Of a DNA stretch of 49,893 nucleotides, positions 4,675 through 49,893 are shown one piece after another; within the stretch, counting starts at the first letter, position 1; every line of letters starts with the position of its first letter. This DNA comes from a virus, in IMG/VR virus record IMGVR_UViG_3300007960_000035, positions 1 through 49,893 of that record; one strand, 5' to 3'. Below the pieces are notes generated by a model. The model was not told where the DNA came from, searched no databases, and saw only the letters and a list, made by a program, of their open reading frames with translations. A program made the translations under genes and the position numbers.

Positions 4675-6365
4675 GCATCACGGTCAACGTCGTCGGCCAG
4701 ACGAACATCGTCACGTCGATCACGAACTCCGACGGAGTCGACGTGTCCATCGGCACGATGGCCGCCCAGACGCTCACGTCGCTGGCGATCATCGGTGGCT
4801 CCAACGTCACCGTCACGACGACTTCCGGCGTCTTCACGATCATCGGCCGCGACGTGCCGGTCGACAGCGTGAACGGCCAGACTGGGACGGTTCTGCTGAC
4901 GTCATCGTCGGTCAGTGCCGCGTCGGCCGTCCACACCCACGTCGTCACCGACATCACTGACTTCGCAGCCGAGGCAGCCAAATACGGCCCCGTTTCCAGC
5001 GTCAACGGCCAGACTGGCACAGTCAGCCTGACGTCCGCAGACGTCAGCGCTGCGTCGGCTGCTCACTCGCACACTGCCGGGAACATCACCGACTTCGCCT
5101 CCGAGGCCGCGAAGTTTGGCCCGGTGTCGAGCGTCAACGGCCAAACCGGCACCGTCAGCCTGACTTCCGCCGGCGTGAGCGCCGCGTCCGCCGTCCACAC
5201 CCACGTTGTGACCGACGTGACGGACTTCGCGACAGAAGCCGCTAAATATGGGCCGGTGTCCTCGGTCAACGGCCAGACCGGCACGGTCAGCCTGGCTGCC
5301 AGCGACGTGAGCGCCGCCTCGGCCGTCCACACCCACGTCGCCACCGACGTAACGGACTTCTCGACAGAAGCCGCTAAATATGGGCCGGTGTCCTCGGTCA
5401 ACGGCCAGACCGGCACGGTCAACCTTGTGGCCTCCGATGTCAGCGCTGCCTCGGCGACCCACGCCCATTCGTATGTCCTGTCGCTAAACGGGCAGACAGG
5501 AACGCTCTCAATCGCCGCCGGCGACAACGTCACGGTCAGCACCTCCGAGGGCTCGATCACGATCGCTGCCGCTGCCGGAGGAACCTCCGGCGGGAGCGTG
5601 ACCAGCGTCAACGGCCAGACCGGCACGGTCGGCCTCGTCGCCTCCGATGTCAGCGCTGCCTCGGCCGTCCACACCCACGTCGCCACCGACGTGACGGACT
5701 TCGCGACAGAAGCCGCTAAATATGGGCCGGTGTCCTCGGTCAACGGCCAGACCGGCACGGTCAGCCTCGTGGCCTCCGATGTCAGCGCTGCCTCGGCGAC
5801 CCACGCCCATTCGTATGTCCTGTCATTGAACGGGCAGACAGGAACGCTCTCAATTGCCGCCGGCGACAACGTCACGGTCAGCACCTCCGAGGGCTCGATC
5901 ACGATCGCTGCTGCTGCCGGCGGAACCTCCGGCGGGAGCGTGACCAGCGTCAACGGCCAGACCGGGGCGATCACGCTGGTCGCCACCGACGTCAGCGCCG
6001 AGAAGCGGCTCACATGGGGCGTCGTCAGCATCGACAACACATCCGCGACTCTCGAGCACAACGTCGACTTCGGGACGGCGACAGTGATCCGAGTCACCCC
6101 TATCACCGAAGGGAACTTCGGCGCCACCGGCGCCGCCAACGGCTCTGAGGGCGCCCACTACCGCCTCATCAACGCGACCACAATTCTCGACCCGTCGCTC
6201 GCATTCACCATCGTCTACGAGTCGACGGCGAGTTTCGCGACCAATCGATTCCACACCGTCGACGGCCTCGACCGCGTCCTCGGCCCGTCGGAGCAGGCCG
6301 AGATCATGTACGACCCGTACATCAACCGATGGAGAGTGACGCCGTGCTGCGGAGGCGGCTACTAG
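4671..6365 (+). CDS. Repeat-built tail fibre protein, 564 aa
   Basis: The protein is made of eight copies of a unit centred on SSVNGQTGTV followed by about DVSAASAVHTHVVTDVTDF and EAAKYGP, plus two variant units LSLNGQTGTLSIAAGDN. This is the usual composition of phage tail fibres and side-tail-fibre shafts. The final 110 residues are non-repetitive and probably form the tip. A 303-base near-identical DNA repeat lies inside. The 3' end overlaps the glycosyltransferase gene by 37 bases. Confidence 0.9.
   Translation: MSITVNVVGQTNIVTSITNSDGVDVSIGTMAAQTLTSLAIIGGSNVTVTTTSGVFTIIGRDVPVDSVNGQTGTVLLTSSSVSAASAVHTHVVTDITDFAAEAAKYGPVSSVNGQTGTVSLTSADVSAASAAHSHTAGNITDFASEAAKFGPVSSVNGQTGTVSLTSAGVSAASAVHTHVVTDVTDFATEAAKYGPVSSVNGQTGTVSLAASDVSAASAVHTHVATDVTDFSTEAAKYGPVSSVNGQTGTVNLVASDVSAASATHAHSYVLSLNGQTGTLSIAAGDNVTVSTSEGSITIAAAAGGTSGGSVTSVNGQTGTVGLVASDVSAASAVHTHVATDVTDFATEAAKYGPVSSVNGQTGTVSLVASDVSAASATHAHSYVLSLNGQTGTLSIAAGDNVTVSTSEGSITIAAAAGGTSGGSVTSVNGQTGAITLVATDVSAEKRLTWGVVSIDNTSATLEHNVDFGTATVIRVTPITEGNFGATGAANGSEGAHYRLINATTILDPSLAFTIVYESTASFATNRFHTVDGLDRVLGPSEQAEIMYDPYINRWRVTPCCGGGY
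5321..5623 (+). repeat. Long direct DNA repeat in fibre gene, copy 1
   Basis: This stretch is nearly identical to 5663-5965, offset by 342 bases (114 codons, so in frame). Only scattered changes are seen (for example Ser to Ala at the TEAAKYGP boundary and Asn to Ser after GTV). Near identity at DNA level indicates a recent tandem-type duplication or continuing homogenisation by recombination. Confidence 0.9.
5663..5965 (+). repeat. Long direct DNA repeat in fibre gene, copy 2
   Basis: Second copy of the 303-base element at 5321-5623. Identity stops at the codon where the next unit changes from GTVGLVASD to GAITLVATD, which marks the duplication edge. Confidence 0.9.
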
Positions 6366-12948: not shown

Positions 12949-15591
12949 ATGACCATCAAGATTAAGCACAAGCGAGGCACGGCTTCTTCGGTGGCGGCTG
13001 CTAACCCAACCCCAGCGGCCGGGGAGCTTGTGTTTGAGACGGACACGCTTCGGTTCAAGTTGGGTGATGGAAGCACGGCGTATAACAGCCTGGCTTACGT
13101 CGCACCGAGTGCCAGCGACATTACGTCCGGCACGCTTGGACAAGACAGGCTTCCAAGCGACATCACGGTAAACAGCCTGTTCCTTTACGACTCACTCAAC
13201 GACCGCGAGATCGAACTGCAACCGTCTGGCCTGAGTGACGACCGGGCGATCATCTTTCCAAACGCCTCTGGCACGGTCGCCCTGGTAGGCCACACCCACT
13301 CCGCCAGCGACATCACGAGCGGCACGCTGGACTCGGCACGCCTCGACGCGACGCTGGCCGCGCTTGCTGGTGTGACCACGTCGGCGGATCAAGTGATCTA
13401 CGCGACAGGCAGCGACACGTTCGCGACTACTGCTCTGTCATCGTTCGGCCGCTCCCTCATTGACGACGCCGACGCCGCAGCGGCGAGGACGACGCTCGGC
13501 GTGCAGCCGACGGCGAGCCCGGCGTTTACGGGCAGCGTTGGAATCGGCACATCCTCGCCCGGCGCACTGCTTGAGGTAAACGGCGGCAGCGGTGCTGCTA
13601 CTTGCATAGTCAAAGGCGAAAGCGGAAAAAATGCGTTCTTGTCTGTGATTGGCAATGGCAACGCCTTCTTGTCCACTTCGCTGGACATCATCCAGCAGAG
13701 CGATAACGCTGCGACTATCATCCAGCGGGCCAATGCCGCGCTGTCACTCTGGACAAACAACACCACCCGCCTCACCATCTCCTCCACCGGCACCGCGACG
13801 TTCGCTGGGCAGATCGTCGGGCAGGCGGGGATGGACGTTACCGGCGCTGCCACCTTCGCCAACACCGGCAACGTCGTCCCGCTTACCGTGACCAACACGG
13901 GCACGGCCAACTCATTCGTCGTCAACGATGCCAGCGGTGATACGACGCCGTTTGTGGTGGATGCGAGTGGGAATGTTGGCGTCGGACTGGGCGGCGCACC
14001 AAATGCTCGCGTGCAGGTCAATCTTGGTGACGTTGCTCCAGCCGCTAGTGGCGACATGAACACTGGCGTAGTATTTCAGAGCAACGGCGCCTCTCGGGCG
14101 ATAAACATCGGCACAGACAACACTGCTGGATACTCATGGATCAACGCAGCGTTCGCAAATAATTCAGGCATCGCAGACAACCTGCACTTGATGACTGGTG
14201 CCACCACCCGCCTCACCATCTCCTCCACCGGCACCGCGACGTTCGCGGGGCAGATTGTGGGGCAGGCGGGGGCGGATATTTCTGGCACAACCGCATTAGG
14301 CGACACAGTCAACTGCGGCACGGCGTCTACGACGGCAACAATCGTCAACGTCGGCCTCGGAGCGACCGGCAATAGATTTGCCCTCATCGACTACGTTGGA
14401 GATACAACCTACACGGACTATGGGCTGAGAGTCGGGCGAGACAATGGAGGCGCAAATGGTCAATCGATCATCCACCACAGAGGCACGGGCGCTCTTGCCA
14501 TAGTCGCTCTTGACGCAGGAACAGTCGAACTCGGAACCAACAGCACCACCCGCCTCACCATCTCCTCCACCGGCACCGCGACTTTCACGGGGCAGATACT
14601 TGCCGACGACATCGCCACCGCCAACAGCGTTGCGTATGGCTTCGATTCGGACCCCAACACCGGAATTGGTCGTGCAGGCGCGGACGTTGTAACGCTGGTG
14701 ACAAACGGAGCCGAGCGGGTGCGGGTGGATGCGAGCGGGAATGTGGGAATTGGGCTGACGCCACTGCAAAAGTTTCATGTCGGTCGATCTGGCAGCGGCA
14801 TTGCAGCGAGATTCACTGACAACGCTACACAAACCCTAGACCTTGGCATCACAGCATCTGCTGGTGTGTACTACGACAACCCAAACAGCGGCTACCAAGA
14901 ATGGCAGATTGGTGGCTCTGGCAAGATGCGGCTTGACGCCAGCGGGAATTTGGGAATTGGGACAACAAACACTGACCCGGCTGGCTCCAATGTGGTCGGT
15001 AGTGCAATTGGCGCGTCTGGCTATTTCAGCATCACACGCGACTCATTCGACCCCGTACGAATCAACCTCAAGAGTGCAGATGGTACGCTTGTTTCGTTTT
15101 TCCAGGACGGAGTCAGCGAGGGGTCGGTCAGCGTTTCGGGTAACACAGTCTCCTACAACGCCTTCTGCGGCTCGCACTGGGCGCAACTCTCCGATCAGTC
15201 TCGGCCCGCGATCCTGCGTGGCACGGTGATGGAGACGATTGACCAGATGTGCGACTGGCCGGAGGACGGCGGCGGCAGTGATCGACTGGTGCGGGTGAAG
15301 GTCAGTGACACGCCAGCATCTCGCCGCGTCTATGGCGTGTTTCTCGGCTGGGATGAGCCCTACGCATCGACCGGCGATATGTACGTCGCTGGTCTTGGTG
15401 CGTACATGGTGCGAGTGTCAGGCGTGGTGCAGTCCGGTGACCTGCTAGAGAGTTCTGGCGACGGCACCGCACGCACGCAGGCAGACGACATCGTCCGCAG
15501 CAGCACCATCGGCAAAGTGTCGTCCACGCATCGCATCGCTGAGTACGACGACGGTTCGTATGTTGTCCCTTGTGTCCTCATGTGCGGGTGA
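12949..15591 (+). CDS. Large tail fibre/tail spike protein with possible autoproteolytic C-terminal domain, 880 aa
   Basis: N-terminus MTIKIKHKRGTASS with GELVFETDT and FKLGDGSTAYNSL is the classical phage fibre head-binding pattern; HTHSASDITSGTLDSARL follows. The middle contains repeated TTRLTISSTGTATFAGQI units and VDASGNVGIG repeats. The final 150 residues (from YNAFCGSHWAQL through GDLLESSGDG) resemble Peptidase_G2-type intramolecular chaperone domains of phage spikes; that assignment is inference. Likely the main receptor-binding protein. Confidence 0.88.
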   Translation: MTIKIKHKRGTASSVAAANPTPAAGELVFETDTLRFKLGDGSTAYNSLAYVAPSASDITSGTLGQDRLPSDITVNSLFLYDSLNDREIELQPSGLSDDRAIIFPNASGTVALVGHTHSASDITSGTLDSARLDATLAALAGVTTSADQVIYATGSDTFATTALSSFGRSLIDDADAAAARTTLGVQPTASPAFTGSVGIGTSSPGALLEVNGGSGAATCIVKGESGKNAFLSVIGNGNAFLSTSLDIIQQSDNAATIIQRANAALSLWTNNTTRLTISSTGTATFAGQIVGQAGMDVTGAATFANTGNVVPLTVTNTGTANSFVVNDASGDTTPFVVDASGNVGVGLGGAPNARVQVNLGDVAPAASGDMNTGVVFQSNGASRAINIGTDNTAGYSWINAAFANNSGIADNLHLMTGATTRLTISSTGTATFAGQIVGQAGADISGTTALGDTVNCGTASTTATIVNVGLGATGNRFALIDYVGDTTYTDYGLRVGRDNGGANGQSIIHHRGTGALAIVALDAGTVELGTNSTTRLTISSTGTATFTGQILADDIATANSVAYGFDSDPNTGIGRAGADVVTLVTNGAERVRVDASGNVGIGLTPLQKFHVGRSGSGIAARFTDNATQTLDLGITASAGVYYDNPNSGYQEWQIGGSGKMRLDASGNLGIGTTNTDPAGSNVVGSAIGASGYFSITRDSFDPVRINLKSADGTLVSFFQDGVSEGSVSVSGNTVSYNAFCGSHWAQLSDQSRPAILRGTVMETIDQMCDWPEDGGGSDRLVRVKVSDTPASRRVYGVFLGWDEPYASTGDMYVAGLGAYMVRVSGVVQSGDLLESSGDGTARTQADDIVRSSTIGKVSSTHRIAEYDDGSYVVPCVLMCG
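13761..13830 (+). repeat. Fibre-gene DNA repeat (TTRLTISSTGTATFAGQI), copy 1
   Basis: About 70 bases nearly identical to 14202-14271 and 14544-14600. Encodes the TTRLTISSTGTATF strand-turn unit. The near identity at silent positions suggests recent duplication or gene conversion. Confidence 0.85.
14202..14271 (+). repeat. Fibre-gene DNA repeat, copy 2
   Basis: Second copy of the element at 13761, with few substitutions. Confidence 0.85.
14544..14600 (+). repeat. Fibre-gene DNA repeat, copy 3
   Basis: Third, shorter copy; identity ends after the ATF(T)GQI codons. Confidence 0.8.
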
Positions 15592-15912: not shown

Positions 15913-15932
15913 TGGCACAATAGGCGGCAAAA

Positions 15933-15941
15933 CGATACAAT
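15933..15941 (+). promoter_or_regulatory. Putative -10 element CGATACAAT before gmd (leaderless mRNA)
   Basis: Identical 9-mer to that at 11025, again with exactly 6 bases to the ATG (15948). The predicted start of transcription is the start codon itself. No Shine-Dalgarno is visible before gmd. Confidence 0.55.
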
Positions 15942-15947
15942 GCCGCC

Positions 15948-16928
15948 ATGAAGACAGCACTCATCACGGGCATCACCGGCCAGGACGGCTCCTATCTGGC
16001 CGAACTTTTGCTCGCCAAGGGGTACGACGTCCACGGCGTCGTCAGGCGGTCGAGCACGTTTGGGACGCAGCGGATCGAGCACATCTTCGATCGCGTTACG
16101 CTGCACTACGGCGACGTGACCGACGGCGGCGCCTTGATGCGAATCGTCGGGGAGGTCGACCCAGACGAAATCTACAACCTCGCCGCCCAGAGCCACGTCC
16201 GCGTGTCTTTCGATCAGCCGGCCTACACGGCCGACGCGGTCGCAATCGGCACGCTCAACGTGCTCGAGGCGGCCAGGACGGTGCCGTTCTGCCGCGTCTA
16301 CCAGGCGTCGTCGAGCGAGCAGTACGGCAACGCATCGGCTGAACCGCAAAACGAGACAACGCCATTTCGTCCGCGGTCCCCATACGGCTGCGCCAAGGTC
16401 TTCGCCCACCATCTGGCGGTGAACTACCGCGAGTCCTACGGCCTTCACGCCTCCTGCGGCATCCTCTTCAACCACGAGAGCCCACGGCGCGGCGAGACGT
16501 TCGTGACCCGCAAGATCACCCGTGCTGTTGGCCGCATCAAGCACGGCCTGCAAGAGAAACTGTTCCTCGGCAACCTCGACGCCATGCGCGACTGGGGCTA
16601 CGCCGGCGACTACGTCGAGGCCATGTGGCTCATGCTCCAGCAGGACGAGCCGGACGACTACGTCATCGCCACCGGCAAGGCGCAGACCGTCCGCGAGTTC
16701 TGCGAGGCAGCGTTCGCCGCGGCCGGCATGGACTACCGAGACCACGTCGAGACCGACCCACGCTACTACCGACCGGCCGAGGTGGACTTCCTCCTCGGCG
16801 ACGCCTTGAAGGCTTCGCGCGTCCTCGGCTGGCAGCCGGCCACGAAGCCGGAGGAGTTGGTCGGCATGATGGTCGAGGCCGACATCGAACTTGCGAGGCA
16901 GGAGTATGTCGTTGCTCAGTCTCGCTGA
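15948..16928 (+). CDS. gmd: GDP-mannose 4,6-dehydratase, 326 aa
   Basis: Converts GDP-D-mannose to GDP-4-keto-6-deoxy-D-mannose. Extended SDR with NADP-binding [12 protein letters not shown] (8-19), active-site SSSE (121-124; the catalytic Thr of E. coli Gmd is Ser here), Y146-x3-K150 (YGCAK) and the diagnostic [11 protein letters not shown] (175-185). Length is a little shorter than E. coli Gmd. It overlaps the GDP-fucose synthase gene by 23 bases, so the two are made together. The product is also the substrate of a perosamine-synthase-type enzyme such as the DegT protein at 35138. Confidence 0.96.
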
Positions 16929-17838
16929 CTGCCGGGTGCTGGTCACCGGCGGCGCAGGCTTCCTCGGCCGCGTCGTCTGCCGCCTGCTCAAGGATCGAGG
17001 CTGCACTCAGGTCACGGTCCCGCGTCGGGCAGTCTGCGACCTCACCGACCCACGGTCGACGGCCAGGCTGTTCGCCGCCTGCCAGCCGGACGTCGTCTTG
17101 CACCTGGCCGCGGAGGTCGGCGGCATCGGCGCCAACATGAAAGCGCCGGGGAGGTTCACCTACGCCAACCTCGCCATGGGCCTGAACGTCATCGAGGCAG
17201 CGAGGCTTCACGGCTGCCGCAAAACCGTCGTCGTCGGCACCGTCTGCTCCTACCCGCTGTCTCCGCCGGTGCCGTTTAAGGAGGAAGACCTCTGGAGCGG
17301 CTACCCGGAGCCAACCAATGCCGGCTACGGGATCGCGAAAAGGGCGGTGTACGAACTGCTCAAGCAGTACCAAAAACAGTACACCATGGCCGGCGCCGTC
17401 GTGATCCCGACGAACCTCTACGGCCCCGGCGACAACTTCGACCCGGCGTCCAGCCACGTCATTCCCGCGATGATCCGGCGGTTCTGCGGAGCCGGCGACG
17501 TCACGCTCTGGGGGAGCGGAACTGCCAGCCGTGAGTTCCTCCACGTCGCCGATGCGGCCGAAGGGATTCTCATGGCCGCCGAACGCATCGAAACGCCGGA
17601 GCCGATCAACCTCGGCGGTGGCGGCGAGGTGTCGATGCGAGACTTGGCCGAACTGATCGCCGGCGAGTGCGAGTACCACGGCACGATCCGCTGGGACTCC
17701 TCGAAGCCGGACGGCCAACCTCGTCGGGCCGTCGACGCCTCGAGAGCGAAAGAGCTTCTCGACTGGCAGCCGCAGGTGAATCTGAAGCAAGGAATCGCCG
17801 AGACGGTCGCGTGGTGGCGGTCACAGGCTACGTCTTGA
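16906..17838 (+). CDS. fcl: GDP-L-fucose synthase (epimerase/reductase), 310 aa
   Basis: Makes GDP-L-fucose from the Gmd product. NADP-binding GGAGFLG (15-21), then C114, Y141, K145 and H184, which match E. coli Fcl C109, Y136, K140 and H179 with a constant offset of five; catalytic Ser107 is replaced by Thr112. [11 protein letters not shown] is the family signature. ATG 16906 is preferred over an upstream TTG. The 3' end overlaps the convergent gene at 17828 by 11 bases. Confidence 0.95.
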
Positions 17839-18998: not shown

Positions 18999-19240
18999 TA
19001 CTTCACCTCCGGCGGCTCGGGAAGCGGCATCCAGTGGGTCACGTTCGGGAAGAGCCACTCACCGCCGTAGTTGCAAAACCACGCCTCCCCGTCAAACGAG
19101 GCGACGTGGTTCCCGTCCATGGCTGTATGAACGAGAACGAGGGCGTCCTTTTCAGGCATCCTCTCGATCACCGGAATCCAGCGTTGCGCCTGCTCCTGCA
19201 ACTCTTCGATCTCGGCGTGCGTCCGCGTTCTGTCCGTCAC
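18998..19240 (-). CDS. DUF551 domain protein, 80 aa
   Basis: The core RWIPVIERMPEKDALVLVHT and the ending VTHWMPLPEPP match DUF551, a family of small proteins frequent in phages and prophages. GTG 19240 overlaps the integrase stop (GTGA), so translation is coupled to the integrase. Biochemical role unknown. Confidence 0.85.
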   Translation of the reverse strand: MTDRTRTHAEIEELQEQAQRWIPVIERMPEKDALVLVHTAMDGNHVASFDGEAWFCNYGGEWLFPNVTHWMPLPEPPEVK

Positions 19241-20094
19241 GACACCCTCGGGATCATCTCCGGCGCCGCCTGCGGCTTCACAATCCGCGGGTCGAGATAC
19301 TTCCTCGTCGTCGCCGGGTCGGAGTGATCGAGCAGCCGCTGCGCCGACCCGCCGGCGGCCTCGAAGAAGGACGCCGTCGTCCGTCGAATGCGGTGGAACT
19401 TGTCCCGACGGCCGTGCGGCAGGCCGGCACGTCGAAGGATGATGCCCAGGCGGCCCCAGAGGTACGACCGTGTGTTCGGCCACGGGAAGACAAATTCCTC
19501 TGGCCCGCGGCCAAGCCGGATCGCTTGAAGCGCATTCCGCGTGTCCTCGCCGATCTCGCGGATCACGTCGCGACGGCCGCCCTTGCGTGTCTCGGCCACG
19601 AAGAGAACGTGCGTGTCGCTGACGTCGCACCACTTCAGCGACATCAACGCCGTCACCCGCTCCGCGGTGTCGTAGGCGAGCAGCACCAGCGCCCGCCAGT
19701 AGGAGGCACCGGGAATTCCGGCGATCGTCGTCTTCTCCTTGCCGGCGGCCTCGAGGAGTCGCCGCATGTCCTCGACGAACCACGCCTGCGGAACCCTCTC
19801 TGGGATTCGCACAGGCGGGTACTGAGGCCACGTCGAGCACAGGCCACGTCTCGAGGAAAACTCGTGGATGGCCCGCAACTGGGCACGGTCTTTGGCCGCC
19901 GTCGCCACCGCCCTCTCGCGGCAACGGGCGGCCAGAAACCGTGCCACCGTCAACTCGTCGAGGTCGTCGAGCGTGGGCTCTCTGCCCAAGTGTCTCGCCA
20001 ACGCCTTGATCGTGATGGAGTAGTTTTCCACGCTGCGGTCAGACAGCGAACGCAGGGGGGCGTACAGGTCTTTCAGGATGTCATTCAAAAGCAT
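19237..20094 (-). CDS. int: Tyrosine recombinase (phage integrase), 285 aa
   Basis: Core-binding N-terminal half, then a catalytic domain with the complete residue set: R146 (AERVTAL), K171 (TRKGG), H234 and R237 (HRIR), H257 (LLDHSD) and nucleophile Y266 (RKYLDP). It would integrate and excise the phage genome. ATG 20094 has GAGGGTGA upstream; an alternative ATG at 20133, abutting the previous stop, would add 13 residues but has no ribosome-binding site. The Shine-Dalgarno lies in a hairpin (see 20099-20116). Presence implies a temperate life style. Confidence 0.93.
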   Translation of the reverse strand: MLLNDILKDLYAPLRSLSDRSVENYSITIKALARHLGREPTLDDLDELTVARFLAARCRERAVATAAKDRAQLRAIHEFSSRRGLCSTWPQYPPVRIPERVPQAWFVEDMRRLLEAAGKEKTTIAGIPGASYWRALVLLAYDTAERVTALMSLKWCDVSDTHVLFVAETRKGGRRDVIREIGEDTRNALQAIRLGRGPEEFVFPWPNTRSYLWGRLGIILRRAGLPHGRRDKFHRIRRTTASFFEAAGGSAQRLLDHSDPATTRKYLDPRIVKPQAAPEMIPRVS

Positions 20095-34847: not shown

Positions 34848-35141
34848 ATGCGACGCCAACCGCTCGAGCGGACGATCGTCGCCAAGGTCATGGCGCAGGC
34901 TCGGAGCCTCGGCTGGTGGGTTATGAAGACCCACGGCGGCTCCTATGGAACCGTTGTCGGCCTGCCTGACGTGCTGGCAATCAAGGACGGCCGGGCAGCG
35001 TGGATGGAAGTGAAGCGGCCGGGGTTTGAGCCGACCCGCGTGCAACTCCATCGTCAGCGCGAACTCAGCGGCTACGGATGCCCGGTGACGACCGTGACCA
35101 GCGCCGCCGACGCTCGGCATTTTCTGGAGAGCATCGGGTGA
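34848..35141 (+). CDS. VRR-NUC domain nuclease, 97 aa
   Basis: PLERTIVAKVMAQARSLGWW, then GTVVGLPDVLAIKDGRAAWMEVK: G-x-PD and E-V-K give the PD-(D/E)XK catalytic residues of VRR-NUC proteins, which act on branched DNA like small Holliday-junction resolvases. Length is typical of the stand-alone phage version. It overlaps the aminotransferase gene by GTGA, an unexpected partner. Confidence 0.9.
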   Translation: MRRQPLERTIVAKVMAQARSLGWWVMKTHGGSYGTVVGLPDVLAIKDGRAAWMEVKRPGFEPTRVQLHRQRELSGYGCPVTTVTSAADARHFLESIG

Positions 35142-36223
35142 GCAAAGACATCTCCTTCGGCGCTGCGGTCGTCGGCGACGCCGAGGTGGCGGCGGTGCGC
35201 CGCGTCTTGGAATCCGGCCGGCTGACCCGCGGGCCTGTGTGCGAGGAGATGGAGGCGGACCTCGCCAGGCTCACCGGCCTCGAGGCGCACGTCGTCTCCA
35301 GCGGCACCGCGGCGATGCATCTGGCCCTGCTGGCCGCCGGCGTGCAGCCCGGCGACCGCGTGATCGTGCCGGCCACGACCTACGTGGCGACCCTCAACGC
35401 GGTGCTCTACTGCGGCGCCGAGCCGGTGCTGGTCGACGTCTGCCCGGCGACGTGGACGATCGACTTCGACGAGGCCGTTGAGGAGGCCGAGAGCCGGCAG
35501 GCCGCGGCGATCGTCCCCGTTCATCTCTACGGCGTTCCTGCCCCTTCGTTTCACGGGTGGCGGGAAGATTATTTCCGCCGCACCGGCCGGCTGGTGCGAA
35601 TCGTCGAGGACGCCGCCGAGAGCCTCGGGTGCCTGCGATCAGGCCGGCACCCGTGCGGAGACCTGGCCGCGCTCTCGTTCTTCGGCTCCAAGACGATCAC
35701 GACAGGCGAAGGCGGCGCGGTGCTGTGGCGCGACCCCACGCTCGGTGCCCGCGTCCGGCATCTGGCTGGACAGGCGATGACGAAGCAGAGGTATCGCCAC
35801 GACACCGTCGGCTTCAACTACCGGATGACGGAACTTCAGGCGGCCATCGGCGTCGAGCAACTCAAGAAGCTGCCGGCTCTCCTCGACGCCCGCCGCCATG
35901 TGTTCGCCTGGTACGACGAGTTTCTGCCTGCCGGGTGGCGACGACAGGACATCGACAGAAACGACACGCACGGCCTGTGGGCCTACGCAGCGACGAACAA
36001 CGAACTCGACGCCAGAAGGGTCATCCACGGCATGGCTCAGGCCGGCATCGAGTGTCGTCCGATCTTTCCGCCTCTGGGCCGGCACAACCACGCCGAGAGG
36101 TTTGCGGCGTACACGCCGCTGGCGGACTTTCTGCACGACCGCGGCATCGTTCTTCCCACGCACCCGCTCCTGACCAGAGACGACGTCAGTCGCGTGTGCG
36201 AAACCCTGGCGGAGTGGAAATGA
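35138..36223 (+). CDS. DegT/DnrJ/EryC1 aminotransferase, probable GDP-perosamine synthase type, 361 aa
   Basis: PLP-dependent sugar aminotransferase. GTG 35138 overlaps the nuclease stop. SGTAAMHLALLAAGV, VEDAAESLG (D158) and SFFGSKTITTGEGG with PLP lysine K185 are present; the last motif is characteristic of perosamine synthases of the RfbE/Per group. It would aminate GDP-4-keto-6-deoxymannose, the product of the phage Gmd at 15948. Two glycosyltransferases follow without gaps. Other 4-keto-sugar substrates cannot be excluded. Confidence 0.92.
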   Translation: MSKDISFGAAVVGDAEVAAVRRVLESGRLTRGPVCEEMEADLARLTGLEAHVVSSGTAAMHLALLAAGVQPGDRVIVPATTYVATLNAVLYCGAEPVLVDVCPATWTIDFDEAVEEAESRQAAAIVPVHLYGVPAPSFHGWREDYFRRTGRLVRIVEDAAESLGCLRSGRHPCGDLAALSFFGSKTITTGEGGAVLWRDPTLGARVRHLAGQAMTKQRYRHDTVGFNYRMTELQAAIGVEQLKKLPALLDARRHVFAWYDEFLPAGWRRQDIDRNDTHGLWAYAATNNELDARRVIHGMAQAGIECRPIFPPLGRHNHAERFAAYTPLADFLHDRGIVLPTHPLLTRDDVSRVCETLAEWK

Positions 36224-42407: not shown

Positions 42408-42500
42408 CTCGCACCTCCTCACTGGTTGCCACGCACCGGGGCCGCACCGTGCAGCCCGCGATGTCGCGGCGAGTAGCCTAGCGTTGTCTCTGCCTGCCGT

Positions 42501-43407: not shown

Positions 43408-43442
43408 CGTTCCTCTCCTCGTTTCGTGGTTGGTTCTTCTAA

Positions 43443-43715
43443 TCAATCAAGTCGTTCGATCGCATCGACCAGCTCCGAGGCATCGCATTTCTCCGGCTCC
43501 CAGTACTCGGCAGCCGACATATCGCATTCGGCGATTTCCTCGAGCCCGGCGATCGCCGAGAAGTACGCGGCAGCATGCGCTCGAGGGCAGTCCAGGTGGG
43601 TATCGCGGTCGAATTGCCGCAGCCCCGTCTCCCGCATCCCCTGCTCGTCCCGGTCTGTGCCGAATGAGTTGATCGCGCACAGCAGTGCGTACGCCTGCTC
43701 CTTGCTCAGTGTCAT
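43443..43715 (-). CDS. Hypothetical protein, 90 aa (paralogue of the protein at 42689)
   Basis: ATG 43715 with GAGGAGAGGACG. MTLSKEQAYALLCAINSFGT and GLRQFDRDTHLDC then YFSAIAGLEEIAECD; about a third of residues match the protein at 42689. One gene (42985) separates the copies. Leader: GCGGCGAAACGAGGAGAGG. Confidence 0.8.
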   Translation of the reverse strand: MTLSKEQAYALLCAINSFGTDRDEQGMRETGLRQFDRDTHLDCPRAHAAAYFSAIAGLEEIAECDMSAAEYWEPEKCDASELVDAIERLD

Positions 43716-43784
43716 CGTCCTCTCCTCGTTTCGCCGCACGGGGCGGCAGGGTTGAATCGGTCCACTGGTTGACACGGGGCGGGG

Positions 43785-44180
43785 TCAGTCACGCCAATGC
43801 TCAAGCGCATCGTCCTCGGTCTCGAACGGGCCGCCAGCATCCACGCCGCGGACGTACACGTACCATCCGGTGCCCTCGACTGCCCTCTGCTCACAACGAG
43901 CGACAACCGGCGGCTCGGCCCGCCCCTCGTCGGCATCGATCGTCCAGCCGCCAGCGCGGGCCTCGTCCTCGGGGATCATCACCTCGTCGTCCACGTTGAG
44001 GTATCCGGCCTCGTCACCAACGATTCGACCAGTGAGTCGGCCGTGTCGGTCGATCTCAGGCCAGCAACCGTCCCACGTACAGCCGTCCTGAAAAATCTCG
44101 TTCCACTCCCGACTCTTGTAGTGCAGGCCGGCTCCGGCCTCGCACCGCCGCTCGTCGGTCATCTCGCTGAATGGTCGCAT
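43785..44180 (-). CDS. Hypothetical protein, 131 aa
   Basis: ATG 44180 with GAGGAGACGACG. MRPFSEMTDERRCEAGAGLH then acidic strands and a C-terminal GWYVYVRGVDAGGPFETEDD. The leader shares a 33-base identical stretch with the leader of the gene at 44293. No family recognised. Confidence 0.74.
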   Translation of the reverse strand: MRPFSEMTDERRCEAGAGLHYKSREWNEIFQDGCTWDGCWPEIDRHGRLTGRIVGDEAGYLNVDDEVMIPEDEARAGGWTIDADEGRAEPPVVARCEQRAVEGTGWYVYVRGVDAGGPFETEDDALEHWRD

Positions 44181-44186
44181 CGTCGT

Positions 44187-44219
44187 CTCCTCATGTTTCG
44201 CCGGACGGTGCCGGCTGGT
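44187..44219 (-). promoter_or_regulatory. Leader element, copy A of an identical 33-base pair
   Basis: Identical over 33 bases to 44519-44551. Read on the minus strand it holds GCCGG-CACCGT-CCGGC (5-bp stem), then GAAAC, then ATGAGGAG leading into the ribosome-binding site of the gene starting at 44180. Confidence 0.8.
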
Positions 44220-44292
44220 TTCCTCGGTCGGGGGCCACCGCGGCCCGCCCCTCGCCGGCGCCCGAGGGCGGCGCCGGAACCAGGGCGGGTCG

Positions 44293-44511
44293 TCACGCCG
44301 CGGCATCCGCCTCCGCAAACTCCATCGCCTCGCGTCGGGTCGAAAACTCCCGCGACCAGACCGCGATGCCGCCCTTGACCAACGCCGCCACCCAGCGTCG
44401 GCCGTTCGCCCGCCTCACCGACCAATGGCCGACCGGAGCATCGAGCAGCATCGCACCGGCACCGTGGCCGGCATCTTCGCTTTTCACCCATCGCCGTGTC
44501 GTCGTGTCCAT
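44293..44511 (-). CDS. Hypothetical protein, 72 aa
   Basis: ATG 44511 with GAGGAGAGCGAAG. MDTTTRRWVKSEDAGHGAGA, then HWSVRRANGRRWVAALVKGG; small alpha/beta. The 3' gap to the next gene (44181-44292) holds a leader element and no ORF. Confidence 0.7.
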   Translation of the reverse strand: MDTTTRRWVKSEDAGHGAGAMLLDAPVGHWSVRRANGRRWVAALVKGGIAVWSREFSTRREAMEFAEADAAA

Positions 44512-44518
44512 CTTCGCT

Positions 44519-44551
44519 CTCCTCATGTTTCGCCGGACGGTGCCGGCTGGT
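44519..44551 (-). promoter_or_regulatory. Leader element, copy B of an identical 33-base pair
   Basis: Second copy of 44187-44219, placed at the same distance before its gene (ATG 44511). Identity of leaders in front of unrelated genes implies a functional regulatory cassette or recent recombination. Confidence 0.8.
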
Positions 44552-44582
44552 GTCGGTCGATCCACTGGCTGCCACGCTCCGG

Positions 44583-44936: not shown

Positions 44937-45041
44937 CGCATCTCTCCTCGCTTCTGGGGTTTCCACGCTCCGGGGCCGCGCCGGCCCGCCCGTCGCCCCC
45001 GGAGCCGGCGTCTCGCCGGGCGGGGGTTGCGGGCGGGTCGC

Positions 45042-45278: not shown

Positions 45279-45362
45279 CGCATCTCTCCTCTCGTTCCCC
45301 CATCCGGGGGTCTGGTGAAATCATCCTCTAGTCGAGCCGCCGCGGCAACGAGCCGGGGCGGG

Positions 45363-45722
45363 TCAGGCACACTCAGCACACAGCCGCTCTGGGCTGCAAA
45401 TGACCGGAAAAAACCAACTCAGCCCCAGCCGCCCGCACTGGTCGCATCGGTACAGCTTGCCGTCAGGCAGGCACCCGCGGGCATCCTCGATCGCCTGCCG
45501 CAGCCCCTCGCGGGCCTGCTCGTCCTCCAGGCTGCCGGCGAGCCGCTCGGCCACGTCGATCGCCAGGGCCGGCATCTTCCGCCTGCCGCGGTAGGTGTCG
45601 ACCTCGACCCAGACCAGCGGCACGTCGTGGCCGGCGGCCCGCCAGGCCCGCACCTCCTCGGCATCGGCCATGACGGCGCCCGCCTCGGCCATTTCGATCA
45701 TCGCGTTTGAAACGTATCCCAT
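45363..45722 (-). CDS. Hypothetical protein with C-terminal zinc ribbon, 119 aa
   Basis: ATG 45722. Helical N-terminus, then LYRCDQCGRLGLSWF and ICSPERLCAECA, two C-x-x-C pairs forming a zinc ribbon. A strong sigma70-type promoter lies just upstream (45796-45823) and a leader-family element at 45723-45780. Might be a nucleic-acid-binding regulator. Confidence 0.78.
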   Translation of the reverse strand: MGYVSNAMIEMAEAGAVMADAEEVRAWRAAGHDVPLVWVEVDTYRGRRKMPALAIDVAERLAGSLEDEQAREGLRQAIEDARGCLPDGKLYRCDQCGRLGLSWFFPVICSPERLCAECA

Positions 45723-45729
45723 CGCCGCG

Positions 45730-45780
45730 TTCCTCCACTCGGGGTCATCGTTTCCACGATCGGGCCACGCGGCCCGATCT
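45730..45780 (-). promoter_or_regulatory. Leader element with perfect hairpin before the gene at 45363
   Basis: GATCGGGCC-GCGT-GGCCCGATC is a 9-bp stem, followed by GTGGAAACGATGACCCCGAG and a GGAGGAACGCGG ribosome-binding site. It is a typical member of the right-arm leader family. Confidence 0.75.
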
Positions 45781-45795
45781 CTCCTTCTGTCGCAT

Positions 45796-45823
45796 ATCCT
45801 AGCATCGGCATAGTGTCTGTCAA
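45796..45823 (-). promoter_or_regulatory. Strong sigma70-type promoter
   Basis: Consensus TTGACA (45818-45823) and TAGGAT (45796-45801), 16-base spacer, on the minus strand; the -35 overlaps the stop of the gene at 45820. The transcript would start near 45789 and run through the leader at 45730-45780 into 45363 and onward genes. Confidence 0.7.
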
Positions 45824-46116: not shown

Positions 46117-46346
46117 GTGGCACCTCCTTCGATGACGCGAACGTCTGACACGGTCGCGTTGTGCTCGATGTTCCGCCGGGCTCGTTGGACCGCCTCGGCC
46201 TCTGCCTCGGCCAGCACCTGCTCTTCGGTGGCCGCCGGATCGACCAGCATCCAGAACCGCCCGGTGCCGCTCGTCCATGCGTGGAGGTGGCCGCCAGCGG
46301 CGTCATATTCCACGCGGACGCGCTTGTAATGCGTCATCGCGGTCAT
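46113..46346 (-). CDS. Hypothetical protein, 77 aa
   Basis: ATG 46346 with AAGGAGGTGCCGC. MTAMTHYKRVRVEYDAAGGH then EEQVLAEAEAEAVQRARRNI, a strand-strand-helix layout. ATGA overlaps with both neighbours. Confidence 0.74.
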   Translation of the reverse strand: MTAMTHYKRVRVEYDAAGGHLHAWTSGTGRFWMLVDPAATEEQVLAEAEAEAVQRARRNIEHNATVSDVRVIEGGAT

Positions 46347-46783
46347 GCGGCACCTCCTTCCGCCTGCTCGCCGATGCCGCGGAGGAAATCGGCCGCCCGG
46401 TCGATCGCGTCGTGGAACGCATCCGCGGCCTTCTGGAACTCGGCCTGCGTGCCGTGCTCGTTCTGGTCAAAGAATGCCTCCTGCTTCTCCACGATCTGCC
46501 GCAGATGGTTGAGCATCGCGGCGTGCCGCGACTCGTCGCACGAAGCGCCGGCGGCCGGCACCTCCTCGCGATCCTCGTATCGGTAGTCGTCGCCTTCGCA
46601 GACCCCCTGCACCTCGCTCTCGCCGGGCTCGTCGTAGGATCGCTGGTTGTCATAGTCGGGGTCATCCATCGCGAGGCGGGCCGCCTCCTCGATGCTCGAC
46701 GCCTCGACGGTCGTGTCGCAGTAGTAGGTCACCGGCCACTCGATGCGGACGGTGTATGTTCGTGTCGTCGTCTTCGTTGCCAT
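46343..46783 (-). CDS. Hypothetical protein, 146 aa
   Basis: ATG 46783. N-terminal strand pattern YTVRIEWPVTYYCDTTVEAS followed by SIEEAARLAMDDPDYDN is a common small phage domain (v.A.s.eeA..lA). The C-terminal half is an acidic helix. Leader: GTGGAAACACGAGACGAG, then GAGGAGAACCCCGACC directly before the ATG, with boxes in altered order. Confidence 0.77.
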   Translation of the reverse strand: MATKTTTRTYTVRIEWPVTYYCDTTVEASSIEEAARLAMDDPDYDNQRSYDEPGESEVQGVCEGDDYRYEDREEVPAAGASCDESRHAAMLNHLRQIVEKQEAFFDQNEHGTQAEFQKAADAFHDAIDRAADFLRGIGEQAEGGAA

Positions 46784-46891
46784 GGTCGGGGTTCTCCTCT
46801 CGTCTCGTGTTTCCACGTTCTGGGCAGGCTCGTCGCCGGCATCCCCTTCGCCGCCGGCCACGGGCGCCGGCGGGGCCAGGGGCGGCCGAAG

Positions 46892-47206
46892 TCAGCGGCT
46901 GGCCTTCTTCGTCGTCTTCTTCGCCTTCGCCTTCTCCCGAGGCGTGGCGCAGTGGAACTCTCCGGCGTGAGCGAAGATCGCCACCCCCTCCTCCTGATCC
47001 TCCTCCTCCTCGTCGTCCCGGGCCACGGCGAAGACCGTGTCGGTGCCGATCTCGGAGTAGCCCTCCGGCACCTCCTCGATGAAGACATCGAGGAGTTTGC
47101 GGCGCGCCAGCGCGTTCAGCACCTCGGCGCAGTCGCTCATGGTCAACTCGGCCTCGTCTCCGTTGGCGAGCGAGCATCGGATCGTTGTCCGGGTCATCGC
47201 GTTCAT
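46892..47206 (-). CDS. Hypothetical protein, 104 aa
   Basis: ATG 47206 with GGAGGAACCAGAAG. MNAMTRTTIRCSLANGDEAE, then an acidic stretch (DDEEEEDQEE) and a Lys-rich end (REKAKAKKTTKK), giving a strongly polar protein. Leader at 47207-47256 of the repeat family. Confidence 0.76.
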   Translation of the reverse strand: MNAMTRTTIRCSLANGDEAELTMSDCAEVLNALARRKLLDVFIEEVPEGYSEIGTDTVFAVARDDEEEEDQEEGVAIFAHAGEFHCATPREKAKAKKTTKKASR

Positions 47207-47256
47207 CTTCTGGTTCCTCCAGTCGGGGTATAGGTTTCCATCCACGGGGCCACGGT
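47207..47256 (-). promoter_or_regulatory. Leader element before the gene at 46892
   Basis: Minus strand CCCCGTGGATGGAAACCTAT then ACCCCGACTGGAGGAACCAG and the ATG. A GC-rich hairpin region follows upstream (GCGCCTCCC/GGGAGGCG). Confidence 0.7.
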
Positions 47257-47312
47257 GGCCGCCGACTCGACGCCTCCCCGCGGGCGGGAGGCGCCGGCTC
47301 GGGGGTCAGTCG

Positions 47313-47831
47313 TCAGAACACCTCCAGCGAGTCGAGGTCGCAGTCGGCCAGCACTCGCTCCATCTGCCGCCACTGCCGGCAGGTTTCCCGCCAGCCAGCC
47401 TGCAACTGACGGTGCTCGGCCACCGTCATCTCATCCGGCTCGCACGACCCGTATGTGTCGATGTAGTCGGCGAGCGTTCCGGGGTCGCACTTCGGCAGGC
47501 AGCACAGGACGTCGGTGATGCACGGGGGGATGCCGTTGCCCGAATCGACAATTGATTGGCCGAATCGGATGGTGAACGACCGCCGACCGTGACGCACGGT
47601 CACCCTCCATATGTCTCGGTCGTCTTTGTCGCAGTCGAACATCCTGCCGTGACTGTCGAATCGAGCGGTCATCGACACGCCGTTCGTCGCCATCCACTCG
47701 CGAGCCATTTCCGCCAGGTCGTCGCCCTCGGTCATCGAATCTGCCAGCGGCAGCGCGATCGCTCGCCCGTGTACGGTGGCGTCGTGATACTCGCGGCTGA
47801 ACGGTTCAAGCGTTTCGTGCGTCGTGTTCAT
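47313..47831 (-). CDS. Conserved phage hypothetical protein, 172 aa
   Basis: ATG 47831 with GAGGAAACGAGAG. WRVTVRHGRRSFTIRFGQSI, then ITDVLCCLPKCDPGTLADYI match a family widespread in tailed phages that reads roughly YDVL.CL.KYDPGTFEDFCSE. N-terminal half is mixed alpha/beta. Function unknown. Confidence 0.86.
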   Translation of the reverse strand: MNTTHETLEPFSREYHDATVHGRAIALPLADSMTEGDDLAEMAREWMATNGVSMTARFDSHGRMFDCDKDDRDIWRVTVRHGRRSFTIRFGQSIVDSGNGIPPCITDVLCCLPKCDPGTLADYIDTYGSCEPDEMTVAEHRQLQAGWRETCRQWRQMERVLADCDLDSLEVF

Positions 47832-47909
47832 CTCTCGTTTCCTCACTCGGGGTCTGCTCGTTCCGCCGGCCGGGGCACCGTGCCTCGGCCGGTTGTGTCG
47901 GCGTGTAGG
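47832..47909 (-). promoter_or_regulatory. Intergenic hairpin-leader element 1
   Basis: Reads CCTACACGCCGACACAACCG then GGCCGAGGCACGGTGCCCCGG (near-perfect palindrome), then CGGAACGAG, ACCCCGAGTGAGGAAACG and the ATG. It fills the whole gap between two genes. Nearly identical to the elements at 48174 and 48466. Confidence 0.85.
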
Positions 47910-48173
47910 TCAGTCGATCGGCCAACCCTGCCGCCAGTAGCAGGGCACGGTGGCCTCGTCGTCGCTGTCGTCGTCGTCGCCCAGGCGCACCTCGGCCACG
48001 AATTCCTCGTCGCCGCGGCCGCCCTCGTCGCATCGGTAGAGTGATCCGCCGTCCCCCTCGTCGGCCCCCTCGTCGGCGAGCAGCTCTCGCACGTAGTCGC
48101 GGGCGGCCGCGTCGGAAACGGCGTCGAACCGCTCATCGCCACCGCGGTCGAACCTGATCAGGTAGTTGGGCAT
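47910..48173 (-). CDS. Hypothetical protein, 87 aa
   Basis: ATG 48173 with GGAGGAACCAGACG. MPNYLIRFDRGGDERFDAVS, then acidic/Gly-rich segments and PCYWRQGWPID at the end. Small beta-strand protein, unknown role. Confidence 0.74.
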   Translation of the reverse strand: MPNYLIRFDRGGDERFDAVSDAAARDYVRELLADEGADEGDGGSLYRCDEGGRGDEEFVAEVRLGDDDDSDDEATVPCYWRQGWPID

Positions 48174-48252
48174 CGTCTGGTTCCTCCGGTCGGGGTTCTC
48201 GTTCCGCCGGCCGGGGGCAACGTGCCGCCGGCCGGCTGTGTCGGCGTGTAGG
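48174..48252 (-). promoter_or_regulatory. Intergenic hairpin-leader element 2
   Basis: Same layout as element 1: CCTACACGCCGACACAGCCG, then a CCGGCCGGCGGCACGTTGCC palindrome variant, CGGAACGAGAACCCCGACCG and GGAGGAACCAGACG before the ATG at 48173. Confidence 0.85.
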
Positions 48253-48465
48253 TCAGACGCGCCGCGCTCCAATCGCCGCCTCGATCTCGGAGACGATGCG
48301 GCCGAATTCCTCGCGGCGCCGGGCATCCTCGGCTCGCCGGCGCTCCAGCGCCGCCGCCGCGCTGGCGGCGTCGCGCCGCTGGCGCCGGGCCTCCCCGAAG
48401 AACGTGAAGTCTGCGAGAATCAGCGCGGCCACGAAGACCGCCGCGTTGGCTACCAGGATCGTCAT
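48253..48465 (-). CDS. Small membrane/coiled-coil protein, 70 aa
   Basis: ATG 48465 with GAGGAGACGAGAC. N-terminal span (MTILVANAAVFVAALILADF) followed by an Arg/Ala/Glu-rich coiled coil (ALERRRAEDARRREEFG). Function unknown; typical of small phage Rz-like or anchor proteins but no pairing gene is seen. Confidence 0.74.
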   Translation of the reverse strand: MTILVANAAVFVAALILADFTFFGEARRQRRDAASAAAALERRRAEDARRREEFGRIVSEIEAAIGARRV

Positions 48466-48541
48466 GTCTCGTCTCCTCGGTCGGGGTTCTCGTTCCGCCG
48501 GCCGGGGCACCGTGCCCCGGCCGGTTGTGTCGGCTTGTAGG
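48466..48541 (-). promoter_or_regulatory. Intergenic hairpin-leader element 3 with perfect 13-bp palindrome
   Basis: Contains CCGGCCGGGGCAC-G-GTGCCCCGGCCGG, an exact 13-bp inverted repeat, followed by CGGAACGAGAACCCCGACCG and GAGGAGACGAGAC before ATG 48465. Conserved core of the family with elements 1 and 2. Confidence 0.88.
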
Positions 48542-49186
48542 TCAGGAGAGCACCGCGGCCCGTGCCACGCTGTCGCCGGCCATCGCCGCCGTGATCATCT
48601 CCGCAGACGGGATCGGGGCGTGTCCCATCACCTCGCGATACTGGGCACGGTTCGCCGCATGCTCCTCGGCCACCGCGAGCCACGCGCCACGACGCAGGTG
48701 ACGGGGGAAACCGCGGAGCCGCCCACCCTTGCCGATCACCGCGTAGACGGCACGGCAGGCGACGGTCCACGGCTGCGCGGCGTGAACGCCGGCCACGACG
48801 CGCCGGACCATCTCGGCGTTGTGGCCGACGAGGCGCTCCACGGGGAGATCGGCACGAACACGCTCCACCATGCCGGGCACCGGGGCCGGCGCCGTCAGCT
48901 TCGGCGTGTGGTCCGGCGTCGAGCGGTACGTGCCGGGCGGATTCTTCGCCTCACGACGGCGTCGAGCCTCCCATGCACGCCGGCGCTCGGCCGCCGCCTC
49001 CGGGGTGCCGGGCAGCGGTCGCAGGCGGGCCGCGGTGGCTCGCACCTCCCGCCCCGTGTCGCCGGTGCGGCACAGATACCGCGCCACGCCACGGCCTTCC
49101 AGGCGGCGCAGGACGGTCACCGGCGCCAGCCGGTTGCCGATCCGCACCCGATACTCGCCGCCGATCTTCACCTCAGACTGTCGCAT
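48542..49186 (-). CDS. Hypothetical protein, 214 aa
   Basis: ATG 49186 with GAGGAGACGAGACG. N-terminal SH3-like region (IGGEYRVRIGNRLAPVTVLR, VARYLCRTGDTGREVR), a linker with Arg/Glu-rich helix, and a C-terminal helical domain with HPIPSAEMITAAMAGDS-like pattern. Largest gene of the array. No family recognised. Confidence 0.77.
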   Translation of the reverse strand: MRQSEVKIGGEYRVRIGNRLAPVTVLRRLEGRGVARYLCRTGDTGREVRATAARLRPLPGTPEAAAERRRAWEARRRREAKNPPGTYRSTPDHTPKLTAPAPVPGMVERVRADLPVERLVGHNAEMVRRVVAGVHAAQPWTVACRAVYAVIGKGGRLRGFPRHLRRGAWLAVAEEHAANRAQYREVMGHAPIPSAEMITAAMAGDSVARAAVLS

Positions 49187-49248
49187 CGTCTCGTCTCCTC
49201 GGTCGGGGTCATCGTTTCCACGAACCGGCGACGCGCCGGTGCGTTGTG
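49187..49248 (-). promoter_or_regulatory. Leader element before the gene at 48542
   Basis: Minus strand ACCGGCGCGTCGCCGGT hairpin, then GTGGAAACGATGACCCCGACCG and GAGGAGACGAGACG before the ATG; two further CCCCG boxes lie upstream (49268-49306). Confidence 0.78.
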
Positions 49249-49314
49249 TCGGGCATCCGTCTAGCAGTCGCGGGTCGGGGTTTCGTCGGACGGGGTTCGC
49301 CCCCGCGACGCAGT

Positions 49315-49344
49315 AATATCGGCCAAAAGTTTGTCAGGAGTCAA
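49315..49344 (-). promoter_or_regulatory. Candidate promoter in the 49187-49451 gap
   Basis: TTGACT (49339-49344) and GATATT (49315-49320) with an 18-base spacer on the minus strand, in a stretch noticeably more AT-rich than its surroundings. It would feed the gene at 48542 through a long leader. Match is moderate. The rest of the 265-base gap holds leader boxes and no convincing ORF. Confidence 0.4.
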
Positions 49345-49451: not shown

Positions 49452-49676
49452 CTAGTTGAATTCCTCGGTCGTGTCACCGACGCGAACGTCTTCCACGGCC
49501 GCTGTCACGACGAGGTTGAACGTCGGCCCTTCGGGGCCGATGGTCATCGTGATGCGTCCAGTGTCCATGTCGGCGTCGAAGCCGATACCGATTGGCTTCC
49601 CGCTCCACGATCGTTCAAGCCGTTTCAGGCCGACGGCTAGCCGTCGAGTCATCGCCTCGCGTTGCTGTGGCGTCAT
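49452..49676 (-). CDS. Hypothetical protein, 74 aa
   Basis: ATG 49676. MTPQQREAMTRRLAVGLKRL, then beta segments (GRITMTIGPEGPTFNLVVTA). The ribosome-binding site appears to be replaced by CGTGGAAACCAGACG, i.e. a leader box where other genes have GAGG. Upstream is a four-copy box array (49683-49765). Confidence 0.68.
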   Translation of the reverse strand: MTPQQREAMTRRLAVGLKRLERSWSGKPIGIGFDADMDTGRITMTIGPEGPTFNLVVTAAVEDVRVGDTTEEFN

Positions 49677-49682
49677 CGTCTG

Positions 49683-49765
49683 GTTTCCACGGTCGGGCTA
49701 TTCGGGTTTCCACGGCCGGGGTGCCCGTTTCCACGGCCGGGGTTCGCTGGTTTCTACGGTCGGGG
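49683..49765. repeat. Four-copy iteron-like array of GTTTCCACGGYCGGGG
   Basis: Copies at 49683, 49706, 49727 and 49750, spaced 23, 21 and 23 bases, about two helical turns. They are the same box as in the right-arm leaders (minus strand CCCCGRCCGTGGAAAC). Arrangement is reminiscent of multiple protein-binding sites or iterons. Confidence 0.8.
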
Positions 49766-49771
49766 ATGCTA

Positions 49772-49893
49772 TCGGACGGTCGTCCCCTCGTCACCTCCGG
49801 CGCCAGCGGCTGCCAGGGTGATCGAGCGGGCGAGGTGATCGGACGGTCGTCCCCTCGTCACCTCCGGCGCCAGCGGCTGCCAGGGTGATCGAG
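49772..49893. repeat. 67-bp tandem repeat, second copy cut by the window end
   Basis: 49772-49838 and 49839-49893 are identical over 55 bases (unit starts TCGGACGGTCGTCCCCTCGT). The second copy runs off the window. It could be a true tandem repeat or an assembly artefact at a contig end. Confidence 0.85.

Follow-up and report, generated by a model that had tools for sequence, protein, structure and literature searches.

Repeated structured leaders between early genes of an uncultivated phage family: probable translation starts that double as recombination joints

Why should three consecutive gene borders of a phage genome be built from almost the same sequence? The window analysed here, W, is the whole IMG/VR record IMGVR_UViG_3300007960_000035 (49,893 bases), and the borders in question separate the minus-strand genes B (48542-49186), C (48253-48465), D (47910-48173) and E (47313-47831). 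The first-pass annotation of this DNA described three near-identical intergenic palindromes, and the description is accurate: the spacers s1, s2 and s3 are 76-79 nt long, 84-90% identical (pairwise identities of 0.89, 0.90 and 0.84), and each contains a palindrome of 27-31 nt. As had also been reported, the string CCTACA.GCCGACACA.CCGGCCG is found in all of them, the palindrome of the third copy (s1) is perfect (13+1+13), and each spacer fills the whole distance between a stop codon and the next ATG; all three lie on the minus strand. With s1 as the query within the 50-kb record, the other two copies are retrieved with E values of 1.5e-24 and 3.1e-22; the similarity of the three spacers is far beyond chance. 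In the coding sense all three follow the same order: tail, GC hairpin, CCCCGGCCGGCGGAAC, linker, CCCCGACCGAGGAGAC or a similar sequence, and ATG (Table 1). The spacers are probably portable intercistronic translation-start leaders of an early polycistronic mRNA, whose shared sequence doubles as recombination joints.

Table 1. Leaders, sequence units, hairpins and related features of W.
Feature	Position	Strand	Remarks
Tandem array of four units	49682..49764	-	About 21-24 nt spacing; precedes first small gene, 49452-49676
Sigma-70-like promoter TTGACT-18-GATATT	49315..49344	-	Upstream of leader-bearing operon
Leader of gene B	49187..49250	-	
Leader s1	48466..48541	-	76 nt; between genes B and C
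s1 perfect 27-nt palindrome	48498..48524	-	CCGGCCGGGGCAC G GTGCCCCGGCCGG (minus strand)
s1 upstream unit CCCCGGCCGGCGGAAC	48492..48507	-	Overlaps hairpin 3' arm
s1 start-proximal unit CCCCGACCGAGGAGAC	48471..48486	-	Contains Shine-Dalgarno
Leader s2	48174..48252	-	79 nt; between genes C and D
s2 hairpin, loop ACGTT	48206..48236	-	GCCGGCCGGCGGCACGTTGCCCCCGGCCGGC; one C.C stem mismatch
s2 two units	48201-48216 + 48180-48195 (span 48180..48216)	-	Start to start 21 nt
Leader s3	47832..47909	-	78 nt; between genes D and E
s3 hairpin	47866..47892	-	One A.C stem mismatch
s3 two units	47860-47875 + 47837-47852 (span 47837..47875)	-	Start to start 23 nt
Leader, same family as s1-s3	47207..47312	-	Gene 46892-47206
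Leader	46784..46891	-	Gene 46343-46783
Leader	45723..45819	-	Gene 45363-45722; overlaps promoter-like TTGACA-16-TAGGAT
Promoter-like site TTGACA-16-TAGGAT	45823-45796	-	Overlaps leader 45723..45819
Leader, type T3	45279..45362	-	Common to 11 records, mostly unrelated genes behind
Leader, type T2, predicted multi-stem fold	44937..45041	-	Common to 11 records, mostly unrelated genes behind
Further leaders (span 43408..44582)	44512-44582, 44181-44292, 43716-43784, 43408-43442	-	
Last leader of the arm	42408..42500	-	
CsrA homolog, 60 aa	28649..28831	+	PF02599 above cut-off; candidate trans-acting RNA-binding protein

The three spacers belong to a larger family. They are three of about 14 leaders within one arm of W (42.4-49.8 kb); further members of the family were found in at least 13 other viral records, which are related or partial. 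The general layout comprises a short 5' tail after the stop codon, a GC-rich hairpin, a CCCCG-N6-(G/A)RAAC unit and an almost T-free linker. A second copy of the unit is usual; it contains the Shine-Dalgarno, and its end lies 5-6 nt ahead of the start codon (50/81 cases of the start-proximal unit). The 16-nt unit, CCCCGACCGTGGAAAC, is directional: among 158 early spacers measuring 30-130 nt, it is present in 88.6%, against 5.1% on the antisense strand, and 53.8% of these spacers hold two units. Its density is 18.5 per kb in spacers vs 0.9 in coding DNA, and none of the 21 mid/late spacers of W contains it. In whole-record counts, the matches to the pattern are restricted to one strand in every record and a reversed control pattern gives zero matches. 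The upstream units are the most uniform at CCC (kept in 90-96%), G5 (99%) and AAC (97-99%). Most early-arm spacers with the unit also hold a GC hairpin, and some leaders have little or no hairpin, such as that at 43408-43442 of W. Tandem arrays like the one placed before the first small gene of W occur in G004, G009, G013, G011 and other records. The Rfam covariance models gave no match to the leaders, either at the gathering score or at E values up to 1.

The family sample comprises early arms from 14 metagenomic records, some of them fragmentary, with genes called by a simple codon-score caller and left unpolished; G010, G011 and G012 are near copies of one another. The relatives were located via a helicase and via unit patterns, and the pattern was then counted in whole records. 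A motif scan with the looser pattern CCCCGACCGAGGAGAC produced many isolated matches in unrelated contigs, which were discarded after inspection. No close relative of W was found among 50,697 cultured-phage records by arm DNA or leader DNA, and a 736-aa protein of W likewise retrieved no close relative from these records, with distant helicase matches only. The pattern scan of 84,980 prokaryote species returned a single contig and, as this contig bears genes of W's phage family, the tandem motif is apparently not of host origin. The contig L072 (JAPOJV010000203.1, 4109 bases), binned into a bacterial MAG, holds genes and leaders of the same phage family and represents either a phage contig placed in the wrong bin or a piece of a prophage.

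Several other features of W complete the description of the record. Pfam assigned no function to eight genes of the early arm. The plus strand encodes a tail-fibre-like protein of 880 aa with an Mtd_N domain (major tropism determinant N-terminus, 12949-15591), two neighbouring nucleotide-sugar epimerase/dehydratase genes (15948-17838), and a trypsin-like protease domain within a phage gene (29178-29915), adjoined by DNA methyltransferase genes. The region 15921-17820 is about 85% identical at the DNA level in 4/4 relatives compared, a conservation far above most of the genome; together with a DegT aminotransferase gene at 35138-36223, the epimerase/dehydratase pair suggests surface-sugar modification. 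A phage integrase homolog is placed at 19237-20094 on the minus strand, which suggests that W may be a temperate phage. The extreme end of the record (49762-49893) contains a 65-base direct repeat, 94% identical and with a 67-base spacing, which is possibly a terminal or assembly feature.

The hairpins of the leaders are constrained in pairing as well as in orientation. The commonest core, GGC-NCGKT-GCC, is found 48 times in the sense and 0 times in the antisense (inverted) orientation, and this fixed loop orientation argues for the reading of one strand. Within 34 distinct 27-nt cores, 89.4% of the pair cells form, compared with 65.6% after shuffling, and the covariation score reaches 0.494, compared with 0.142 after shuffling and no more than 0.224 in slid controls. 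Seven of the ten stem pairs vary on both sides; the cores were picked by loop and flanking pairs, so that the innermost invariant pairs are uninformative and the outer seven are the informative ones. Since pairing and covariation lie above the controls, hairpin formation is under selection in the commonest core class. As a folded strand, most likely of RNA, the hairpin would be recognised by a ribosome-associated factor, a phage or host factor, or a nuclease. The stem mismatches (12 G.T vs 15 A.C) show no wobble preference in favour of RNA, and the folding z-scores are similar on both strands, which makes the choice of strand by folding energy uninformative. The T2 leaders have a predicted nested multi-stem consensus fold, given as an illustration, with one alignment row carrying an extra 5' base. 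A role of the hairpin in simply insulating the folding of the Shine-Dalgarno region was also considered. This role was rejected, as permutation of the hairpin letters in silico has almost no effect on the predicted openness of the start region (0.576 vs 0.566, p 0.056), and it is more likely that the hairpin is recognised or has a protective effect than that it purely insulates.

The genes placed behind the leaders are exchanged while the leaders stay. Types T2 and T3 occupy equivalent positions in 12 records, and the cargo behind each of them is homologous in 4/66 record pairs and unrelated in 62/66. In the 62 unrelated-cargo pairs, leader identity is 74% vs 53% for random leader pairs, and the cargo, compared over its first 90 nt, has 54% identity, which equals the baseline of random coding DNA. 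The spacers s1, s2 and s3 are each 84-88% identical to a G002 leader lying between unrelated genes (88% for s1). The relatives also differ from W by the absence of genes: the order in W is B-s1-C-s2-D-s3-E and in G004 it is B-s-D-s-(another gene), which makes C and one leader a single unit that a genome either has or lacks. The comparison of gene order with relatives, the check put forward in the first-pass annotation, shows the opposite of a conserved order with diverged spacers, the outcome that it had named as refuting.

The joints are placed exactly at the gene borders. BLAST matches run from stop to ATG between W and G004 (W 4529-4618) and between W and G002 (W 4850-4961, both in reverse-complement coordinates). 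Across all records, the right end of HSPs of 40-140 nt lies at most 8 nt from a start codon in 54% of cases vs 4% at random, the left end at most 8 nt from a stop in 30% vs 4%, and both in 17% vs 0.5%; the HSPs are not independent, and these percentages are effect sizes rather than p-values. One gene family, with 83-85% amino acid identity, is preceded by a T4/5 leader in G002 and by a T2 leader in G010 and G011. The G002 gene and its G010/G011 counterparts have a nucleotide identity of about 0.3 over the 30 nt preceding the ATG and of 0.87-0.95 after it, reaching 95% over +30..+90, and the leaders themselves share 0.33 nucleotide identity. Judging from such present-day joints, recombination would have taken place inside the leaders. 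The interpretation offered in the first-pass annotation stands in part: portable joints between leader and gene are borne out by relatives in which genes between leaders are swapped or missing, with the joints at stop and start codons, and its terminator proposal is not upheld, as discussed below.

The transcription and translation context is consistent with a role of the leaders at the start of translation. The arm of W has two promoter-like sites vs 0.5 expected, and none, SigA-like -35/-10 pairs included, is placed at s1-s3; from so few sites, most leaders should lie inside long transcripts. The gaps between early genes are bimodal, with 43/239 at exactly -4 and 138/239 at 50-115 nt, the former probably representing translational coupling and the latter leaders. 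Genes without a leader mostly overlap the preceding gene by 4 nt. T makes up 4.6% of the last 35 nt of leaders, and the predicted start-region openness is 0.57 for leader genes vs 0.43 for 4-nt-overlap genes. On these predictions, the open and nearly T-free start region and the bimodal gaps fit a model in which translation of each plugged-in gene starts independently. Transcription of the early genes of the leftward arm would yield one long mRNA or a few of them, in which every leader would supply its own gene with an independent and open translation start. Recombination in the leaders, presumably homologous, could replace or drop a gene with expression undisturbed, so that the leaders stay and the cargo changes. 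Clean gene exchange of this kind would be possible because the leaders are alike and end exactly at the ATG.

Other explanations were weighed against this one. It is unlikely that the leaders form the regulon of the phage's own CsrA, in which dimers would bridge two GGA-containing units, one of them over the Shine-Dalgarno, and switch early translation. A CsrA dimer can bridge a spacing of 21-23 nt, and the paired units of s1-s3 lie 21-23 nt apart; leaders contain on average 2.4 GGA in their last 60 nt, and GGA is present in 79% of the start-proximal units but in only 59% of the upstream ones. CsrA is encoded in 12/17 family records, namely in 12/12 of those of at least 35 kb, the five without it being fragments of at most 14 kb; it was found in 0/24 contigs outside the family, and in a published survey in about 1.2% of phages (PMC7366521). 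Shared ancestry alone could, however, account for csrA in all members. In addition, GGA at the aligned positions 11-13 of upstream units is kept in 40% only, whereas CCC, G5 and AAC are near-invariant; ANGGA occurs just 0.24 times per leader, the GCGAAAC leaders, which are numerous, have no upstream GGA, and GGA is absent from the hairpin loops. CsrA is therefore a candidate reader of the leaders, a good lead, but one that the pattern of conserved bases in the unit weakens. It is just as unlikely that the hairpins are RNA processing sites, as also proposed in the first-pass annotation, or stability sites; in this case the early mRNA would be cleaved at every leader, with the hairpin shielding the resulting 5' or 3' end, comparable to the RNase III sites of T7. 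Most leaders do have a hairpin of about 5-13 pairs between the stop codon and the Shine-Dalgarno, within an apparently co-transcribed operon with few promoter-like sites, but a conserved loop orientation and a conserved sequence unit exceed the needs of a double-strand cutter.

The units could alternatively be DNA sites for a phage protein, either stoperator-like or ESAS-like promoter/operator sites, with the hairpins as palindromic DNA operators. The 16-bp units are indeed directional, dispersed and mostly intergenic, they are arrayed in tandem at 21-26 bp close to where the operon begins, W has a phage integrase gene, and the stems lack a wobble preference. This explanation is nevertheless improbable, considering that the stems of the T1 core change on both sides with pairing kept, unlike a duplex recognition site, and that the units lie at a fixed distance from the ATG and double as Shine-Dalgarno; moreover, the arm has just two promoter-like sites and the units of W are confined to the early arm. 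A still smaller probability is given to recent local duplications of spacers combined with ordinary phage mosaicism and no special function. The three copies of W are more alike than most copies in relatives, but in diverged phages the leaders are still found, their hairpins covarying and their flanking genes unrelated, and this covariation across records already disfavours the explanation. Intrinsic terminators or attenuators between the genes, the proposal (as terminator-antiterminators) of the first-pass annotation, are hardly credible: the GC-rich hairpins of the spacers are not followed by a T-tract (T 4.6% after hairpins), and a terminator scan found 5 vs 3.3 expected, none of them at s1-s3.

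The leaders, read as portable translation starts and joints, share features with several known systems. PeSLs are the promoter-early stem-loop cassettes of T4-type phages, reportedly described in Arbiol 2010 and Comeau 2014. These stem-loop elements are credited with gene shuffling in the hyperplastic early region (PMC4503421). PeSLs resemble the leaders in being a repeated intergenic stem-loop element that is conserved while the flanking genes are shuffled, and differ in combining a promoter with a terminator stem-loop, whereas the leaders combine a stem-loop with a ribosome-binding leader, mostly lack a promoter-like site or terminator and have their joints at the ATG. Neither a promoter-like site nor a T-tract terminator was found at s1-s3. 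The SAS/ESAS elements of cluster K mycobacteriophages are also short directional repeats a few nt before the ATG, over the Shine-Dalgarno, that occur in the non-structural arm only, are frequently accompanied by an inverted repeat further upstream, and are kept before genes of different families; the leaders equally have a directional repeat beside start codons, which in W is confined to the early arm, and this shared layout suggests a similar way of working. On the other hand, the SAS is a 13 bp sequence, GGGATAGGAGCCC, to which the leader unit is unrelated, and its consensus (at most 2 mismatches, 3-9 bp before the ATG) was not found in the leaders read. In ESAS, the inverted repeats show no RNA-hairpin covariation (Pope 2011), and SigA-like promoters are located within them (PMC11373665). 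In contrast, the leader hairpins covary, most leaders have no promoter-like site, and they span the whole distance from stop to start. As the defining features of SAS/ESAS and of PeSLs were looked for and not found, the leaders are assigned to neither.

The boundary sequences of module junctions (PMC3029335) are similar in being conserved sequences at gene borders that could seed homologous exchange, and in the family of W the joints of swapped genes do lie at conserved leader sequence. According to PMC3029335, boundary sequences of this kind cannot be recognised at the majority of mosaic boundaries, whereas the leaders are placed at most gene borders of a whole arm. The stoperators of cluster A mycobacteriophages are likewise dispersed asymmetric sites, mostly intergenic and in one orientation to transcription; they are, however, 13-bp repressor sites on DNA, genome-wide, with no hairpin and no fixed position relative to the start codon (PMC3029335). 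Leader regulation by CsrA/RsmA has in common with the present system the repeated GGA near the Shine-Dalgarno and a CsrA encoded by the phage, and differs in that GGA is neither the most conserved part of the unit nor located in the hairpin loops. Leaders targeted by CsrA have a near-invariant GGA, which typically lies in a hairpin loop or over the Shine-Dalgarno.

It has long been debated whether clean swaps of single genes arise by homologous recombination at short boundary sequences or by illegitimate recombination followed by selection. Because leaders lie at most gene borders of the arm and the joints are readable to the base, this question becomes directly testable in the present family. 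A more speculative view, of low probability, is that the early arm of this uncultivated phage family may be a plug-in rack, in which RNA leaders selected for their fold and ending at the start codon would be read by a dedicated phage factor, possibly the core CsrA, and accessory genes would be exchanged by recombination between leaders. A core phage CsrA could be studied with this collection of structured leaders. The leaders also delimit the early accessory genes, which makes the arm a natural place to seek anti-defence and host-takeover proteins.
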